Shown: positions 1-25,213 of the stretch, piece by piece | How positions within the stretch are numbered: the first letter of the stretch is position 1 | Layout: each line of letters begins with the position of its first letter | Virus record (IMG/VR): IMGVR_UViG_3300021403_000051 | Span: 1-25,213 of that record | Reading direction: 5' to 3' (one strand) | Source: a virus | DNA: 25,213 nt | Made by a program: the position numbers and the translations under genes | Notes under the pieces: generated by a model | The model's database searches: none | Seen by the model: only the letters and a program-made list of their open reading frames with translations | What the model was told of the DNA's origin: nothing

Positions 1-45
1 CTGTCGCCTATCTCTCCCTCACACCCGCGCCGTCCCGTCGGTGGT

Positions 46-236
46 GAGATCCCTTGCCCCCCAACGCGTTTCGGTCGGCCGGACCTGTTGCGGCGCAACG
101 GGTTTCGCGGTCGGCGGCGGGCGCGCGGGATCGGTTGGTGCGCAACCGGTTTCGACCGGTGGGAATCGTTGTGGGCCAGGGTGTTTCGGTCCTGATTGGT
201 CGTGATCGGGAGGCGTTGCGGCGCAATCCGTTTCGG
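46..236 (+). repeat. left terminal repeat array, five degenerate units
   Basis: Five copies of a unit of about 28 bases read roughly GAnnTCSSTTGCGGCGCAA followed by CSSGTTTCGG. The TTG of each core starts at 54, 88, 135, 169 and 216, so spacings alternate exactly 34, 47, 34, 47. The core TTGCGnCGCAA is nearly palindromic; the flanks GAGATCC and GTTTCGG give it direction. The units fill the non-coding stretch before the terminase gene; no convincing gene is seen in 1-303. Related units in mostly opposite orientation lie at the right end. A protein-binding array (terminase, replication or regulatory protein) is the most natural reading, but the partner is unknown. Confidence 0.75.
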
Positions 237-303: not shown

Positions 304-1755
304 ATGAGCGACGAATGGTGGGGGTTGGAAGATCCGCCGCCGTCGGCGGCGTGGCCACGCCTGGCGTCGGGGCGTCACCCGCGGGCGGTGGGGACGTACG
401 GTCCGGAGGTCCTGGCGTGGGCGTCGGAACGCCGGTTGCACCCGAAACGGTCATCGGTGCGGCGGTGGTGGCAACGGGCGGTGGCTTACCGGGCGTTGGA
501 GTACGACCACGCGGGCGACCTGTGTTGGGGAACGGTGATGGTGTCCGGTCCCCGCCAGACGGGGAAGTCGTGGCTTGAGCGGGACGTGTGCGCCTGGCGG
601 ATCCACCAGGCGGAACGGTGGGGCGAGGAACAGGCGTTACTTCACGTCGCGCATAAATTACCCGCCGCACAAGAGGTTTGGCGCCCCGCGGCGCGGTGGG
701 CGGCGGGGGTGTACGGACCGCGGACGGTGCGGTGGGCGAACGGGGAACAGCAGATCGAACTACCCGACGGGTCGCGGTGGATGATCCAGGCGGCGAACGA
801 CGGATCGGGGGTCGCCTTTTCGTTGTCCCACGTCCTGGTCGATGAGGCGTGGCGGGTCCCGCGGGTGGTGTTCGATGACGCCATCGTGCCGACGATGGCC
901 GAATCGGCGTCGCCGCAAGCGTGGTTGGTGTCGACCGCGGGGACGTCGGATAGCGACCTCATGTTGGGTAACCGCGTCGCCGCCATCGCCATGTTGGGCG
1001 CGGATGATCCTGGCGACCTGGCCATCCTCGAATGGTCGGCGCCCCCGGACCTTGACGTGGACATTGACGACCGCCGCGTGTGGCGGGCGGCGACGCCTCA
1101 TTGGGATGACCGCCGCGAAACGCGGATGGCGTCGGCCAGGTCGATGACGTCGGAACGGGCGTTCCGCCAACAATGGTTGAACCAATGGGTCCCCGCCGAA
1201 AAACCGCCCCTGTTGGGTCCGGACGTGTGGGGTCGGGTGGTGACCCTGGCGGCGCCGTCGGGGCGGGTGTCGTTCGGGGTTGACGTGGAGGCGGACCGCG
1301 CGGCGGCGGTCATCCTGGCGATGGGCGGCGGGGTCCTCGAATTGGTGGAACGCCTCCCGGTCGCGTCGGCGGTGGCCAGGGTGGCGGATCTCGCGGCGAA
1401 CCACCGGGCGTCGGCGGTGGGCGTGGACGCTAGTGGCCCCGCGGCGTCCCTGGTTGGCCCCCTGGCGAACGTTTTGGGTGTCCGCCTTGTCGCCATGTCA
1501 GGCGCGGATACGGCGGCGGCGTCGGGCGACCTGTTCGACAGGATGACCGCGAACCCGCGGGGCGTGGCGTTCCGCGCCCACCCGTTGCTACAGGCGGCGG
1601 TGGTGTCGGCGCGTACGCGGTCCTACGGCCAACGGTGGGCGTGGGAACGGTCGCCCGCCCCTGGGGTGTCGGGGGCGCCCATGGTGGCGGCGTCGTGTGC
1701 GGTGTGGGCGTTCGATCACGCGCCCACCCCCGTCGGTCGGTTCGAGATCCAATGA
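304..1755 (+). CDS. terL: terminase large subunit
   Basis: 483-residue packaging motor that would bind the prohead portal, hydrolyse ATP and cut the DNA. The Walker A motif GPRQTGKS is at about residues 82-89 and the Walker B segment VLVDEA at about 177-182. The C-terminal half has an RNase H-type nuclease look, with acidic positions in GVDVEAD and GVDASGP. Length and domain order fit phage large terminases. The ATG at 304 follows a G-rich stretch (GGTAGGGG) and a short tandem duplication of GGTCGGTCATG; the earlier ATG at 284 is out of frame. The portal gene follows by 16 bases. No small terminase is recognisable on either side, which is unusual; HNH lies upstream only if the ends are joined. 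Confidence 0.93.
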   Translation: MSDEWWGLEDPPPSAAWPRLASGRHPRAVGTYGPEVLAWASERRLHPKRSSVRRWWQRAVAYRALEYDHAGDLCWGTVMVSGPRQTGKSWLERDVCAWRIHQAERWGEEQALLHVAHKLPAAQEVWRPAARWAAGVYGPRTVRWANGEQQIELPDGSRWMIQAANDGSGVAFSLSHVLVDEAWRVPRVVFDDAIVPTMAESASPQAWLVSTAGTSDSDLMLGNRVAAIAMLGADDPGDLAILEWSAPPDLDVDIDDRRVWRAATPHWDDRRETRMASARSMTSERAFRQQWLNQWVPAEKPPLLGPDVWGRVVTLAAPSGRVSFGVDVEADRAAAVILAMGGGVLELVERLPVASAVARVADLAANHRASAVGVDASGPAASLVGPLANVLGVRLVAMSGADTAAASGDLFDRMTANPRGVAFRAHPLLQAAVVSARTRSYGQRWAWERSPAPGVSGAPMVAASCAVWAFDHAPTPVGRFEIQ

Positions 1756-3698: not shown

Positions 3699-4982
3699 AT
3701 GAACCCCGTTTTGGTCCGGTTGCAGGCGGAACGCGCCCGCGCGGTCGAATTCATCGACACCCTGTTGGCCCGCGTGGAGTCGGAATCGCGGGACCTGGTC
3801 GACGCCGAACGGTCGAACCTTGAGGCGACCCGCCAAAGGATCGCGGAACTAGACGCCCAAATCGAACCCCTCGCGGCGTTCGAGGACCTGCGGGGCGTCC
3901 ACCACGAATCGTCCGCGCGGGTCCTCGCCCCGGTTGGTCCTGCCCCCGCCGCCGACAACGGGCGGTCCCTGGGTGGCGGCGCGGCGGCGGAGTACCGCAC
4001 CGCGGGCGGCGTCATCGTGGACATCCTCCGGTCCCGTGGTTTCTTCCCCGACCGGACGGCCAACGCGTCGTCGGGTCCCCGGTTCCTGCCACCCGACGCG
4101 GAAGCGGCGTCGCGCCTGGCCCGCGCGGTGGTCAACCAGACCACCGCCGACACGCCTGGACTCCTGCCCACGCCCATCGTCGGCCAGGTGGTCAACCTGA
4201 TTGACGCGTCGCGCCCGTTCATCACATCCCTGGGTGGGGCAAAGCCGATGGGCGGGATCCCTGGGAAGTCGTTCGAGCGTCCGAAGATCACCCAGCACAC
4301 GCAATCGGGGATCCAGGCGGCGGAAAAAACCGCCCTCCCCTCGCGGGCCATGAAAATCGACCCCATCACGTTCACCAAAGCCACCCACGGTGGAACGGTG
4401 GACGTGTCCCGCCAGGACATTGATTGGACCTCGCCTAGCGCGTGGGACATCCTGGTCCGGGACCTGGCCGACGTCTACGCGGTGGACACCGAACAGGACG
4501 CCGCCAATGGTCTGGTCGCCGCCGTCGTCACGAACACCGTGGCCGTGGCCACCGACGATTTGGCGGGGTGGGCGGCGGCGTTGTACACCGCCGCGGGATT
4601 GGTCTACAAGGGCGGCGGGCGCCTTCCTGACCGCGTGTGGTGTTCCATCGACATGTGGGGAATGTTGGGCGCCCTGGTCGACACCGCCCGCCTGGGATTC
4701 CCACCCGCGGGGTTCGCGGCGGGCCAATTGGGCGAGTCGGACCTTACCCAATTCGGCGGGTACGTGTTGCAACTTCCGCGAATCGTCGTCCCGTCGTTCC
4801 CCGACGGAACGTGCATCGTCGGTTCGTCGCCCCTGTTCGAGGTGTACGAGGAAACCATCGGGTTGTTGTCGGTGGTTGAACCGTCGATCCTGGGTGTTGA
4901 GGTCGCCTACGGCGGATATCTCGCCTGGGGCGCCCTTGAGGAAAAGGGATTCGCAAAGATCACCGGACCCGCGGCCCCTTAA
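3699..4982 (+). CDS. major capsid protein (HK97 fold)
   Basis: 427-residue shell protein. Residues 1-70 form a charged, heptad-like helix (RLQAERARAVEFIDTLLARV, then ERSNLEATRQRIAELDAQI) that acts as a built-in scaffold (delta domain), followed by a Gly/Pro-rich linker and an HK97-like core with the typical segments VVNLIDASRPFI, KATHGGTVDVSRQDIDW and the C-terminal LGVEVAYGGYLAWGALEEKGFAKI. The ATG at 3699 is preferred over the GTG at 3687 because AGGTGG sits 8 bases upstream. The gene ends in CCT TAA, with a PKD-like reading frame continuing in the -1 frame without a good start of its own, so a minor extended form is possible. Confidence 0.92.
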   Translation: MNPVLVRLQAERARAVEFIDTLLARVESESRDLVDAERSNLEATRQRIAELDAQIEPLAAFEDLRGVHHESSARVLAPVGPAPAADNGRSLGGGAAAEYRTAGGVIVDILRSRGFFPDRTANASSGPRFLPPDAEAASRLARAVVNQTTADTPGLLPTPIVGQVVNLIDASRPFITSLGGAKPMGGIPGKSFERPKITQHTQSGIQAAEKTALPSRAMKIDPITFTKATHGGTVDVSRQDIDWTSPSAWDILVRDLADVYAVDTEQDAANGLVAAVVTNTVAVATDDLAGWAAALYTAAGLVYKGGGRLPDRVWCSIDMWGMLGALVDTARLGFPPAGFAAGQLGESDLTQFGGYVLQLPRIVVPSFPDGTCIVGSSPLFEVYEETIGLLSVVEPSILGVEVAYGGYLAWGALEEKGFAKITGPAAP

Positions 4983-4996
4983 TCACCGTTAGCGCT

Positions 4997-5380
4997 GTGG
5001 TGGGCGCGCTAGGCCAGGTCGACGCCCACGCTAGCGGTGTAACAGGAACAACGGCCACGTTCGACTACGGGGATTCGACCGCCGCCGACGTCCAGGACGT
5101 CACCGACGGGGAGGCGGATTCCGAGCACACCTATACCGCCAATGGGACGTTCACCATCACGGTTACGGACGACGATTCGGAAGGGACCACCACCGCCACC
5201 GTCGCGGACCTCGCGGCGTTGGAATTCGACCCCGCGGACCACACCGTTCCGGAAGTCCAGGCGTACGTCACCGACAACCCCGATTCGGTGGACGACGTCC
5301 GGGCGTTGGAGGCGGACGGTAAGGCGAGGACGACGCTCCTGGCGTGGTTGGACGCCCTGGACGACGGGGACACCCCGTGA
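4997..5380 (+). CDS. PKD/Ig-like capsid decoration protein, probable -1 frameshift extension of the capsid protein
   Basis: 127 residues from GTG 4997. Residues about 8-66 look like a PKD/Ig domain (ATFDYGDST, then EHTYTANGTFTITVTDD). Residues 72-120 resemble the small helical C-terminal module of actinophage head proteins (TVPEVQAYVTDNPDSV, then ALEADGKARTTLLAWLDAL). No SD precedes GTG 4997 and there is no internal Met. The frame is open upstream and reads L-I-T-V-S-A-V-V from 4979, which would supply the first strand of the PKD fold. That frame is -1 relative to the capsid gene and joins it at CCT TAA. The protein would sit on the capsid surface, alone or as a minority fusion. Independent initiation at GTG remains possible. 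Confidence 0.7.
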   Translation: MVGALGQVDAHASGVTGTTATFDYGDSTAADVQDVTDGEADSEHTYTANGTFTITVTDDDSEGTTTATVADLAALEFDPADHTVPEVQAYVTDNPDSVDDVRALEADGKARTTLLAWLDALDDGDTP

Positions 5381-15208: not shown

Positions 15209-15402
15209 CCGAACATCACCACCACCGCCCGGACGACCAACACCAGGAGGACGAGCGTTACCACCGTCAGGGCGACGGCGGCGTGTTGGTACGTCCGCCG
15301 CGCCTGTTCGTGACGCGCCGTCGCCAACAACAGGTCGCGGGTAAGGCGGTCGAAATCGTCGCGGCGAACCATCATCCAATCGTCAGGGTCGGGGTCCATC
15401 AC
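15205..15402 (-). CDS. small tail-anchored membrane protein
   Basis: 65 residues; ATGA overlaps with both neighbours. An acidic start (DPDPDDWMMVRRDDFDRL) is followed by a charged helix and one hydrophobic segment at about residues 43-64 (VALTVVTLVLLVLVVRAVVV), leaving the N-terminus probably cytoplasmic. In a cluster placed for expression from the prophage, a small membrane protein may serve superinfection exclusion, but this is only position-based inference. No family recognised. Confidence 0.65.
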   Translation of the reverse strand: MMDPDPDDWMMVRRDDFDRLTRDLLLATARHEQARRTYQHAAVALTVVTLVLLVLVVRAVVVMFG

Positions 15403-15938
15403 GTCACGGTCAACCCCGCGGACCTCGCGGCGGCGTACGCGTCATCCAACGCGGTCCGGTTGTGGTGGCTCGTCAGGTGCATCCGCGTAGCGAATGAGGA
15501 CGTGAAGTCCTCGCGGCACAGGGGGCACCGTAGCGGTGCCTGGGGGATCGGGGACCCCAGGTGCACCCGGTAGACGTGGGCGGTTAGGGACGTCCGGACC
15601 GCCAACGTCTTACCGCACACCCGACAGGCGGCGGGCGCCATCGACGGGGATGGGCCATCGTCTAGATCCTTCCGCGGGCGCCCCATGACCGCCGTGGGGC
15701 GCGTAGCGGCGGGTAGTTCGGGTGTCTGGCCCACCGACCCCAACAGGTCCGCCAGAGGGGCAACCAACGCCTTAACGTGGTCCCCGCATAGATCCAGGAC
15801 CTTAAGGACGGGGCGCGACGATTCGCCCAACGTGGCGCCGACGGTCCACGATTCGACCGCCTCCACCCGCGTCATTTCCCCATCCCCGCCGTCGGCGGCG
15901 CACACGTCGCACCACCGCAAAACGACAACGTCCCTCAT
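15399..15938 (-). CDS. C2H2 zinc-finger protein with AT-hook-like motif
   Basis: 179 residues. Two classical C2H2 fingers are visible: C105-x2-C108-x12-H121-x4-H126 and C138-x2-C141-x12-H154-x3-H158. An N-terminal zinc site may be formed by C10-x2-C13 and C51-x2-H54. Between them lies MGRPRK at 85-90, which resembles an AT-hook core (GRP). The protein is therefore probably a DNA-binding regulator. Classical tandem C2H2 fingers are rare in bacteria; single Ros-type fingers are the known exception and have different spacing. It lies third in the minus cluster, ATGA-coupled to its neighbours. Target unknown. Confidence 0.78.
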   Translation of the reverse strand: MRDVVVLRWCDVCAADGGDGEMTRVEAVESWTVGATLGESSRPVLKVLDLCGDHVKALVAPLADLLGSVGQTPELPAATRPTAVMGRPRKDLDDGPSPSMAPAACRVCGKTLAVRTSLTAHVYRVHLGSPIPQAPLRCPLCREDFTSSFATRMHLTSHHNRTALDDAYAAARSAGLTVT

Positions 15939-18753: not shown

Positions 18754-18892
18754 AGTCCCAGACTAGCACCTAACGAACCAATCGGAATGGACTATTGCGC
18801 AACGTGTTTCATCGGGCATAACGTCCAGGGATCCCCATAGTGGAACCGATCCGGTCCCAGAATGGGACCCAGGACCAGGAAGGGAACCCCAC
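18753..18892. promoter_or_regulatory. divergent control region (operators, promoters) between repressor and early operon
   Basis: Two inverted repeats are visible: TAGTC-CCA-GACTA at 18753-18765, over the likely -10 and start of the repressor gene, and GGTCCCA-GAA-TGGGACC at 18853-18869, before the early SD. They share GTCCCAGA, as expected for sites of one regulator. Between them TTGCGCAACGTGTTTC (18795-18810) matches the terminal repeat family. Promoter hexamers are not clear enough to place. The early gene's SD is AGGAAGG near 18877. Confidence 0.65.
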
Positions 18893-22008: not shown

Positions 22009-22283
22009 CACACCCCGACCAATACACCCGCCGCGCGGACCCGTTGGAGGGCGCCAAAGTGTGTGGTTATTGCGGACGCCTGATAGGTGAGGGCGCCACC
22101 ATCGTCCGCGGGGCGGGACAGGGCGCCTGGGAACACTTGCGGTGTTACCCGACGCCGCGCCCCAACCCGTGCCCCCACGGGCGGAACCGGTACGCGTGCC
22201 TGGTGTGCGTGGGCGTCCTGGCCGAAACCCACCCCGCCGATACACCGTTCATCCCACCGGGCCAACCGGTTCCGACGCCATGA
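22005..22283 (+). CDS. small zinc-ribbon/treble-clef-like protein
   Basis: 92 residues. Two Cys/His clusters: C20-x2-C23 with H44-x2-C47 (VCGYCGRLIGEG, then WEHLRCY), and C56/H58 with C65-x2-C68 (NPCPHGRNRYACLVC). The pattern predicts zinc binding and possibly nucleic acid binding. ATGA overlaps both neighbours. The Pro-rich C-terminus seems disordered. Role unknown. Confidence 0.65.
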   Translation: MTHPDQYTRRADPLEGAKVCGYCGRLIGEGATIVRGAGQGAWEHLRCYPTPRPNPCPHGRNRYACLVCVGVLAETHPADTPFIPPGQPVPTP

Positions 22284-22714
22284 CCACGCCCATCGTGGGG
22301 GCGCCCGCCCTCGCCGCCGCCGTCGGCGCCACCGCCCGCCAGGTCGACTATTGGACCCGCCTGGGATGGATCACCCCCGACAACCCCAACGCGGGATCCG
22401 GGATCAACACCATCTATCCACCCGCCGCCGTTGACCACGCCCGCGCCATGGCCCGCCTAGTGGCCGTCGGGGTCAACCCAGGCGCCGCCCACGAACTAGC
22501 GCGCCGCCTCGAACAGGTCGACCGCCTCGACCTAGGCGACGGATACGCCCTCGAACGGAACCCGCCATGGATCAATGCCGACGGTGTCACGCCCCCATCG
22601 TGTGGACAATCACCGAACGCGGTAAGCGAATGCCCCTCGACCGCGAACCCACCCCCACCGGAAACATCGCCATGTGGACCGACGCCAACGGAATCGACCG
22701 GTCCCGATACCTGA
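22280..22714 (+). CDS. MerR-like HTH protein with long out-of-frame overlap
   Basis: 144 residues. A MerR-type winged helix covers about residues 5-75 (VGAPALAAAVGATARQVDYW, then LGWITPDNPNAGSG, YPPAAVDHARAMARLVAVGV). After about residue 95 the sequence becomes Pro/Ser/Thr-rich without structure and runs 148 bases into the next gene in another frame. The domain is well formed, so the gene is real; the tail is probably a chance extension after loss of an earlier stop. It may be an early transcription regulator. Confidence 0.7.
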   Translation: MTTPIVGAPALAAAVGATARQVDYWTRLGWITPDNPNAGSGINTIYPPAAVDHARAMARLVAVGVNPGAAHELARRLEQVDRLDLGDGYALERNPPWINADGVTPPSCGQSPNAVSECPSTANPPPPETSPCGPTPTESTGPDT

Positions 22715-23277: not shown

Positions 23278-23553
23278 ATGGCCCCCGCGTTCCGGGATTG
23301 GGTCGCCGCGATATACGCCGCCAAAATCACCCCCGCCGCCCGCGATACCCTCATCGCCTACGGGTTGCACATGTCCCGGAACGGAACCATCCGAATATCG
23401 CGGGACACCATTGGGGAATGGACGGAACGGGGTAGCCGCGTCCTCGCCCGACATATCCAGGAAGGCACCCGCGCGGGCATCCTCGAACCAATCCGCGGCG
23501 CCGGTCGCGGGCACCCCGCCACCTACCGCGCCACCCTGCCACCCGATGTCTAA
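23278..23553 (+). CDS. winged-helix DNA-binding protein
   Basis: 91 residues, four bases after the previous stop. The pattern is a winged HTH: TPAARDTLIAYGLHMSRNGT, then ISRDTIGEWTERGSRVLARH and IQEGTRAGILEPIRGAGRGH, closing with TYRATLPP. Actinophages use such proteins as replication initiators or regulators. It lies right before the structured non-coding region with long repeats, which would be a natural target. Stop at 23551-23553. Confidence 0.65.
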   Translation: MAPAFRDWVAAIYAAKITPAARDTLIAYGLHMSRNGTIRISRDTIGEWTERGSRVLARHIQEGTRAGILEPIRGAGRGHPATYRATLPPDV

Positions 23554-23931
23554 CTATCTCGGTCGGGACGTATACGAACAGGCGACACGCCGTAACGGGT
23601 GTCGTCCAGGGTCACCCGTTGGGGGTCAACGGGTGACCCTAGCGAAACACGCGACACGCCGTAACGGGTGTCGTCCAGGGTCACCCGTTGTGAACGCCCA
23701 CACATATAGGGATCGCGCGCGCGCGCCCCTTAAGGCGACCACCAACTACGGCACATGCACCGTCCAACCGCACAACCCAGCGTGTCGGCCACCCATCGGT
23801 CCTGCCGCGGATCCCTGGCGGGATCCTTGCCCCCGAACAATGCTGGTCAATTACCGCACAAATGAACCCAATCAATCCCGACCCAGCGCAACCACAAGTA
23901 AGCAACGCGCGCGCGAACGAATGGCGGAACA
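23554..23931 (+). other. structured non-coding region, possible origin or regulatory element
   Basis: No convincing gene in 378 bases. It has a 40-base exact direct repeat (23582-23621 and 23651-23690), a perfect 14-bp hairpin (23608-23640), a hairpin GGATCCC-TGGC-GGGATCC (23809-23826), TATAGGG near 23704 and alternating GC runs (near 23714 and 23906). Base use differs from the coding parts; for example CAGC appears twice. A frame ending at 23935 crosses it but has no codon pattern. Confidence 0.6.
23582..23690 (+). repeat. two 40-bp exact direct repeats with a strong hairpin between
   Basis: Copies at 23582-23621 and 23651-23690 start GCGACACGCCGTAACGGGTG and end AGGGTCACCCGTTG. The base 23627-23640 (CAACGGGTGACCCT) is the exact reverse complement of the 14 bases that end each copy. 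It can thus pair with copy one (5-base loop) or copy two (36-base loop), giving two exclusive folds. Each copy also has a smaller GACAC/GTGTC stem. Confidence 0.85.
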
Positions 23932-24672: not shown

Positions 24673-25213
24673 ATGTCGTCCGCGCTCCGGTCCACGGGAT
24701 CGACAACCAGGTGGCGCCGCCTACGCGCCGCCCACGCGCGGACCCTGCCCCGTCCCTGTTGGCGGTGCGGACGAATGATCAACACATGGGACCGCTGGGT
24801 GTTGGGCCACATCATCGACAGGGCAGACGGCGGCGACGACCACCTGTTGGCGCCCGAACACGAACGGTGTGGTTACTCGGCAGGCGCGACCGCGGGCAAC
24901 CGGCGACGCCACGCGAGATCCGTTGCGGCACACCAGGTTCGCTACGGTGAAGATCAATACCGACCCACGCCGGCGACAGGGGAAACCGTTGCGGCGCAAG
25001 GGATCTCGCCCGCCGACAACCGTTGGGGCACAAGCGAACCCCTCGCCCCGCTCGCCGACGCGACAACCGTTGCGGCACAAGCGATCCCGCCGCGCGACGA
25101 CGACGCGAAAAGCGTTGCGACGCAAGCGGTGTCGACGGGCGAAACGCGTTGCGCCGCAACGGATCTCGCCCGCGGGGGGTCCGTTTTTTGTGACGCCCCC
25201 CCGCCGCTGGCAC
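24673..25213 (+). CDS. HNH endonuclease, partial (runs off the right end)
   Basis: Open from ATG 24673 to the window end, 180 codons plus one base. HNH part: C29-x2-C32, G45-H46...D49, GGDD at 53-56, H63-x2-C66 (WVLGHIIDRADGGDDH, then PEHERCGYSAGATAGN). The middle Asn of a standard HNH is not seen; His57 stands there. Such enzymes assist terminase at cos sites. After residue 80 the frame crosses the repeat array, giving low-complexity protein (TVAAQ, SVATQ). If the window ends are joined, the stop is TGA at 45-47 and the product has 195 residues. Confidence 0.8.
   Translation, partial: MSSALRSTGSTTRWRRLRAAHARTLPRPCWRCGRMINTWDRWVLGHIIDRADGGDDHLLAPEHERCGYSAGATAGNRRRHARSVAAHQVRYGEDQYRPTPATGETVAAQGISPADNRWGTSEPLAPLADATTVAAQAIPPRDDDAKSVATQAVSTGETRCAATDLARGGSVFCDAPPPLA
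24915..25178 (-). repeat. right terminal repeat array, six degenerate units, mostly inverted relative to the left array
   Basis: Core TTGCGnCGCAA-like units have their TTG at 24923, 24989, 25023, 25070, 25115 and 25149; spacings are 66, 34, 47, 45 and 34. The first unit has the left-array direction; the others read as its reverse complement, with GAAAC/GACAAC before and GATCTCGCC after the core. They lie inside the HNH reading frame but in different codon phases, so the DNA, not the protein, is conserved. Confidence 0.75.
25172..25204. other. GC-rich hairpin with T6 loop at the right terminus
   Basis: GCGGGGGG (25172-25179) pairs with CCCCCCGC (25197-25204); the loop holds TTTTTT. It lies just outside the last repeat, at the middle of the mirrored arrays if the ends are joined. 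It might be near a cos cleavage site or an assembly break caused by structure. Confidence 0.5.

Follow-up and report, generated by a model that had tools for sequence, protein, structure and literature searches.

A predicted cos site nested in an HNH endonuclease gene and flanked on both sides by mirrored arrays of palindromic boxes in an actinobacterial-type phage genome

Introduction

The detailed anatomy of cos sites rests on a few coliphages. In phage lambda, cosB holds three sites for the small terminase subunit (TerS), one of them inverted; lambda, 21 and N15 are not alike in their packaging specificity (PMC4669245). In HK97 cos cleavage is stimulated by an HNH protein, gp74, and the TerS binds close to the cut (PMC9410871, PMC11331095). 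Extensions of 9 and 10 bases at the 3' end have been reported in Gordonia phages, that of McGonagall being 10 bases long (PMC5559632). In Firmicute phages the Ltr/Alt regulators bind four repeats upstream of the late promoter (PMC13123087). The layout described here bears on how cos phages that lack a recognisable TerS beside TerL find their own DNA.

The window analysed is the whole of IMG/VR record IMGVR_UViG_3300021403_000051 (25,213 nt), and "joint" denotes its end at 25213 joined to position 1. The record is best explained as a temperate siphovirus of actinobacterial type with a cos-ended linear genome, whose 3' overhang, probably of about 9 nt, was lost in assembly. The strengths attached below to the cos site, the HNH frame, the binding sites and the packaging role are judgements, not computed values.

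Genome Content and Relatives

The window encodes terL, portal, capsid, tape measure, endolysin, a repressor, an excisionase-like protein, RecE/RecT and RusA, with an integrase on the minus strand and the HNH gene at the right end. When TerLs are compared, identity is 53-60% with 16 aligned metagenomic relatives and <30% with phages of the annotated collection; no DNA-level match to the window was found among the records of that collection, and a blastn search for annotated phages carrying the window unit gave chance matches only. A scan of genome contigs with the TerL alignment returned one match, which was irrelevant; single-protein scans of viral contigs with the MerR-type and HNH proteins did not find confirmed relatives, and Rfam and tRNA scans found nothing. 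By eye, a minus-strand protein at 15399-15938 appears to begin with an Lsr2-like region and to carry two C2H2 fingers after it.

The cos Site and the HNH Gene

The window almost certainly starts and stops at a cos cut. The features concerned are as follows.

304..1755, plus strand: terL, terminase large subunit (phrog_9, E 2.9e-38; TerLs of relatives)
24673..25213, plus strand: HNH endonuclease gene, 5' part, continuing over the joint to 47
1..47, plus strand: HNH gene, predicted 3' part; frame from position 3, ending ..LTPAPSRRW, TGA at 45-47
25184..25189, plus strand: T6 tract of the predicted cos core, 24 nt from the right end and at the same place in relatives
25206..25213, plus strand: right half of the predicted cosN dyad (CTGGCAC) and right virion end, from alignment with relatives
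1..10, plus strand: left virion end and left half of the predicted cosN dyad (CTGTCGCCTA); contig ends of independent relatives are equidistant from the CTCTCC-type box
11..18, plus strand: TCTCTCCC box of the predicted cos core, with a start at position 11 in eight contigs

The genome ends are fixed and adjoin the terminase genes, with terL from 304 and HNH from 24673. A CTCTCC-type box starts at position 11 in the window and in contigs L031, L033, L035, L036, L013, L040 and L208, and at 9-12 in four further contigs of relatives; words of this type occur in 4 of 5432 background windows. Joined relatives share a core made up of a T tract, about 20-25 nt, a GGACA...TGTCC dyad and CTCTCTCC; homologous joined cores are present in L018, L021 and L022, and the record of the isolated phage EricDab ends inside the dyad. 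Relatives have a T tract with C/G-T-GAG-like sequence behind it in the corresponding position, the T6 tract of the window doubling as the tail of a terminator-like hairpin (25158-25185), and the right cosN half aligns with CGGACACCCCGCGCC/GTGTCCG of EricDab and with L018, L021 and L042. The alignment of related phages that the first-pass annotation had proposed as a check finds the T tract, dyad and CTCTCC-type box recurring at the joint. Alignment with joined relatives points to 8-10 nt missing there and the HNH frame needs a gap divisible by 3, so the missing overhang is most likely 9 nt; a single-stranded stretch of about this length, presumably a 3' overhang, would be absent after the right end.

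The HNH catalytic domain occupies approximately 24673-24920, and the linker that follows it contains the right array as well as the right half of cos. The assignment comes from a weak match to the HNH endonuclease families phrog_589/338 (E 1e-4), and the domain is 53-58% identical to HNH proteins of the closest relatives. The reading frame is open to the right window end and re-enters the left end for a gap of 0, 3, 6, 9 or 12 nt, where it reaches the tail APSRRW and a stop; relatives' HNH proteins end in APSRDW, PSREW, PPSRAW or PPSRRW, a conserved motif PSR[DERA]W directly before the stop. This conserved tail, together with the joined homologous cores, indicates that the ends are joined inside the cell, and the HNH frame very probably crosses cos. 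The joint had been placed between HNH and terL, but the frame passes over it and ends only with the stop at 45-47, so that the HNH gene would contain the cut together with the T tract and the right array. In the records of the Gordonia phages Emperor and SallySpecial the HNH gene is likewise annotated as split by cos. An HNH gene so split would be intact only on circular or concatemeric DNA and broken by each cut, which ties the supply of nuclease to the joined state of the genome.

Common contig ends, a conserved core, an HNH frame over the joint and adjoining HNH and terL genes strongly support the earlier proposal of a cos site here; the further suggestion that the repeats are a packaging signal stays plausible.

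Box Arrays at the Joint

The units that flank the joint are listed from the outermost right unit to the outermost left one.

24914..24942, minus strand: R6, orientation opposite to the other right units
24980..25008, plus strand: R5 (GGGAAACCGTTGCGGCGCAAGGGATCTCG), flank-scored unit
25014..25042, plus strand: R4, flank-scored unit
25061..25089, plus strand: R3, flank-scored unit
25106..25134, plus strand: R2, flank-scored unit
25140..25168, plus strand: R1 (CGAAACGCGTTGCGCCGCAACGGATCTCG), flank-scored unit
45..73, minus strand: L1, overlapping the HNH stop codon
79..107, minus strand: L2, flank-scored unit
126..154, minus strand: L3, flank-scored unit
160..188, minus strand: L4, with a degenerate core
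207..235, minus strand: L5, flank-scored unit

Six right units (cores 24923-25149) and five left units (54-216) are present, as the first-pass annotation had it; the TTG of the right cores stands at 24923, 24989, 25023, 25070, 25115 and 25149 (1-based) and that of the left cores at 54, 88, 135, 169 and 216, some of the cores being degenerate. The spacings it gave, 66, 34, 47, 45 and 34 on the right and 34, 47, 34 and 47 on the left, are reproduced, as is the mirrored orientation when the flanks are scored: R1-R5 read CGAAACC..GATCTCG towards the joint and all five left units run the opposite way, with small score margins for L2, L4 and L5, and the single right unit excepted is the outermost, R6. 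The cores are of the type TTG-N5-CAA, and the unit as first described needs correction: in its symmetric form it reads CGAAACC-GTTGC-NNN-GCAAC-GGTTTCG, and in the window units GATCTCG takes the place of one arm, the one nearer the joint.

The repeat array is far beyond chance. Within the 900 nt around the joint there are 9 copies of TTG-N5-CAA, compared with 3 in the remaining 24.3 kb (Poisson p 2.7e-12, uncorrected for the approximately 13,000 patterns). The joined region of 539 nt reaches a best gapped-palindrome score of 18.4, while 300 dinucleotide shuffles score no higher than 8.2 and 134 windows elsewhere in the genome no higher than 7.0. At the threshold used, 9 boxes of the window lie near cos and 0 far from it. 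The units do not fit a CRISPR array, as degenerate 29-nt units at a spacing of 34-47 nt leave gaps of 5-18 nt, in contrast to near-identical repeats with unique spacers of about 30 nt. The arrays are predicted with high confidence to be functional protein-binding sites.

The HNH frame covers the right units, several of which translate to VAAQ/VATQ-like peptides, as would be expected of a coding repeat of the HNH protein (a VAAQ-type linker) with no function at the DNA level. Their codon phases, however, are 0, 0, 1, 0, 0 and 1, so that two phases are used and the earlier observation of differing phases is upheld; the left array stands outside the HNH frame, and in the relatives G028 and G029 units are wholly outside HNH. 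A purely coding origin of the repeat is refuted by this placement and can practically be dismissed.

Arrays around cos in Other Phages

Judged from the sequences compared, the box layout recurs around cos in distant phages, with words that differ between relatives; the pairing of boxes with cos was judged by enrichment near cos and by eye, and the words were not all set against one common null. A scan for the core pattern gave 43 stretches, most of them chance, from which G028, G029, G031 and L195 stood out on reading. G029 has arrays on both sides of cos (4+4), with four boxes CTACAACCGTTGCGCTGCAACGGTTGTAG on the right and four with the inner core GTTGGTACCATTGG on the left, and none elsewhere; at its ends (L206 1-300, and L207) outer arms CTACAACCGTTG are common to both arrays, and the inner core is GCGCTGCAAC in one and GTACCATTGG in the other. 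G028 carries window-type boxes at cos (3+2). In G008 the boxes are arranged 3+5 with the word TGTTCGAACA, and the exact word TGTTCGAA occurs 8 times near cos and 0 times in the other 34 kb; the TTCGAA word is also used by G004, G006, G007 and L050, the boxes of G004 being on both sides of cos. CAATTC-like words lie near cos in G009, G018 and G001.

Cultured phages display the same plan. In GMA5 and McGonagall, TGCATA-type palindromes (TGCATANNTATGCA) flank cos on both sides, and Coeur has two-sided boxes (3+2) with the word CGAAAACCGTTG, the boxes of Coeur and Rahul being CGAAAAnCGTTG; the spacings in Coeur are 45 and 33 before cos and 34 after it, similar to the 45 and 34 before and 34 after that adjoin cos in the window. 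The HNH gene lies before cos in G028 and Coeur, across it in the window and after it in G004 and G008, with boxes on both sides throughout. There is no such array at cos in EricDab, Emperor, SallySpecial, Schiebs, G015, G016, G023 and G025; these relatives have the order HNH-cos-terL, a finding of the kind that the first-pass annotation had named as refuting, and it speaks against an obligate packaging site.

Two further sites resemble the arrays. G031, an otherwise unrelated 59.6-kb phage, has four units such as CGAAACCGTTGCAGCGCAACGATCTC, nearly the window unit, at L212:3067-3223, downstream of tail-fibre genes and approximately 15 kb from the portal gene. L195, a 7.5-kb contig, has at 4868-5060 two pairs of GTTG..CAAC boxes, 33 apart within a pair, which flank a 113-nt gap with G-rich sequence; it looks like another cos-type site.

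Outside cos, G028 has 11 further window-type boxes (L208, L213, L214, L209) where a permuted-consensus null gives a mean of 0.08; many are inside genes, mostly early and structural ones. Such scatter would suit sites of a repressor, stoperators or operators, that cluster most densely around cos. The dispersal of Cluster A-type stoperators is not seen in the window, which has no good match at 18754-18892, and G028 differs in this respect; in the window, G029, Coeur and GMA5 the boxes that pass the threshold all lie at cos and none in a repressor region, and related repressors occur with unrelated boxes or none, which makes stoperators a very improbable account of the arrays.

Candidate Binders and Late-Operon Control

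Of the genes in the window, only terL, HNH and, in some cases, RecE/RecT have counterparts in most array-bearing phages, and no binder was found; phmmer likewise found no regulator shared among the array-bearing phages. No TerS was recognised among the window proteins scanned, and there is no gene between cos and terL. Two small proteins of the window were considered.

22280..22714, plus strand: MerR-type winged-helix protein (PF13411, E 2.2e-5)
23278..23553, plus strand: small protein, winged helix by eye, with no family match of note

The MerR-type protein has a weak match to the Nu1-type small terminase phrog_57 (E 0.019), and the quality of its AlphaFold model (mean pLDDT 56.5) is too low to search by fold; since G004, G007, G028 and G029 lack this protein, it is not favoured as the common reader of the boxes. 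The small protein at 23278-23553 is only a lead as an array or origin binder. The small terminase of the Gordonia phages was rejected as the reader: one TerS family (phrog_15169) occurs among the small Gordonia phages with different boxes or with none, and therefore does not need them. RecE/RecT are encoded in the window, G004, G007, G008 and G029, but also in the array-less Kuleana, and were not seen in Coeur or GMA5.

The boxes might instead bind a late transcription regulator in an Ltr/Alt/RinA-like role, at a promoter between cos and terL with which cos is merely co-located. The arrays always stand in front of the late operon, the Ltr/Alt regulators set a precedent in binding repeats upstream of a late promoter (PMC13123087), and the dispersed boxes of G028 are as expected of a regulator or stoperator system. 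However, a promoter needs no boxes beyond cos, and here they lie on both sides of it, mirrored, with the right half in HNH coding sequence; none turned up at the repressor/early promoter regions of the window, Coeur, GMA5 or McGonagall, and no window protein tested came out as an Ltr/ArpU-type regulator. Late-operon control, the main rival to a packaging role, is held to be unlikely, if far from negligible.

Nucleotide Skew and a Possible Origin

In the window, compared by genome eighths, both skews change sign at the joint, GC skew from -0.16 to +0.11 and AT skew from +0.21 to -0.11, although the genes on both sides run in one direction; the GC skew switches likewise in G029, G004, G007 and G008. 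This is consistent with the boxes being iterons of an initiator, in an origin that overlaps cos, and in the unrelated contig L167 iteron-like TTGCGCCGCAA repeats lie inside an initiator-like gene (940-1115, where TTGCGCCGCAA and TGCGGC alternate in what looks like an iteron origin with a similar word). The array-less G016, however, has the same skew switch, and Coeur, GMA5, McGonagall and G028 have boxes and no switch. The window also holds another origin-like element at 23577-23690, in which two 45-nt direct repeats (98% identical, 69 nt apart) have between them a long hairpin, AGGGTCACCCGTTG-GGGGT-CAACGGGTGACCCT; it adjoins the small protein at 23278-23553, is a candidate origin or structured element, and is near enough to the joint to account for the skew switch. 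An origin formed by the boxes is regarded as distinctly unlikely.

Proposed Packaging Role

It is hypothesized that the arrays form an enlarged, two-sided cosB-like recognition site for a putative dimeric protein, a packaging role to which an even chance is given. A role of this kind is favoured because the arrays follow cos and not a gene, wherever HNH lies. The scattered boxes of G028 weaken a purely packaging role, and further points against packaging are the G031 unit away from the portal region, the relatives with cos and no array, the late promoter expected in the array region and the skew switch there.

Under the proposed mechanism, both arrays would constitute one site of approximately 540 bp centred on cosN, its 11 palindromic boxes pointing in opposite directions on the two sides and sparing the central 100-120 bp, where the T tract, the cosN dyad and the CTCTCCC box lie; any one box would suit a dimeric protein. 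The binder would be phage-specific, a packaging protein resembling a small terminase or else a protein that partners TerL/HNH. Bound on both sides, it may fold the flanking DNA into a nucleoprotein complex by which TerL and HNH are positioned on cosN. Each end made by the cut would retain its own set of boxes. The mode of action would resemble that of lambda cosB, with recognition from two sides.

A broader proposal is made tentatively and is judged less likely than not: in several actinobacterial-type phage groups, cos may be the centre of a two-sided palindromic array for a dedicated, fast-changing DNA-binding protein, instead of a cut with cosB on one side. The box word would switch among relatives whose TerL, TerS and HNH stay similar, and a phage would thereby package or control its own DNA alone. 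If true, the array would encode specificity, be it of packaging, of late-gene control or of replication control, and could be read in the cultured phages Coeur, GMA5 and McGonagall.

Comparison with Known Systems

The lambda cos (cosQ-cosN-cosB, with R3, R2, R1 and an IHF site) resembles the window site in having several partly inverted sites within approximately 160 bp of the cut, in adjoining the terminase genes and in site words that vary from one relative to another (lambda, 21 and N15; PMC4669245); GTTTC words stand at 53, 115 (inverted) and 155 of the lambda record, and the 11 boxes of the window are similarly copies of one word beside cosN, some of them inverted. In lambda, however, the three R sites lie on one side of cosN only, the binder gpNu1 is encoded next to TerL with no HNH, and the overhang is 5' (PMC9410871), whereas the window has 6+5 boxes on two sides and no TerS gene next to terL. 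Since 6 boxes lie on the non-terminase side, the window site is not classed as a lambda-type cosB.

HK97 shares with the window an HNH protein (gp74) as a packaging component, encoded beside the terminase genes and cos, and the gene order terL, portal, protease, capsid, together with the 3' overhang proposed for the window. Its TerS, encoded next to terL, where the window has no such gene, has one 15-bp site, 15-29 bp downstream of the cut, and the part of that source drawn on here mentions no repeat arrays (PMC11331095). Late regulators of the Ltr/Alt/RinA type also have repeat clusters in front of the late operon, but these are four direct repeats on one side only, while the window repeats lie upstream of terL and beyond cos.

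The small Gordonia phages (Coeur, Rahul, GMA5 and McGonagall; cluster CW and relatives) share with the window the order HNH-cos-terminase, a core of the T-tract/CTCTCC type and two-sided palindromic boxes; they differ in using other box words and fewer boxes, in having a TerS gene and in an array that does not cross HNH, and the boxes of Coeur are unmirrored where those of the window are mirrored. Emperor and SallySpecial have an HNH gene split by cos as in the window, but no arrays near cos. The first-pass annotation had matched the repeats to no packaging site, which holds for the two-sided mirrored plan of 11 units, although multiple partly inverted sites are known from the one-sided cosB of lambda. 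The window site is therefore regarded as a site of a known kind, a cos, in a new layout: its box array is two-sided and mirrored and is nested in the HNH gene.
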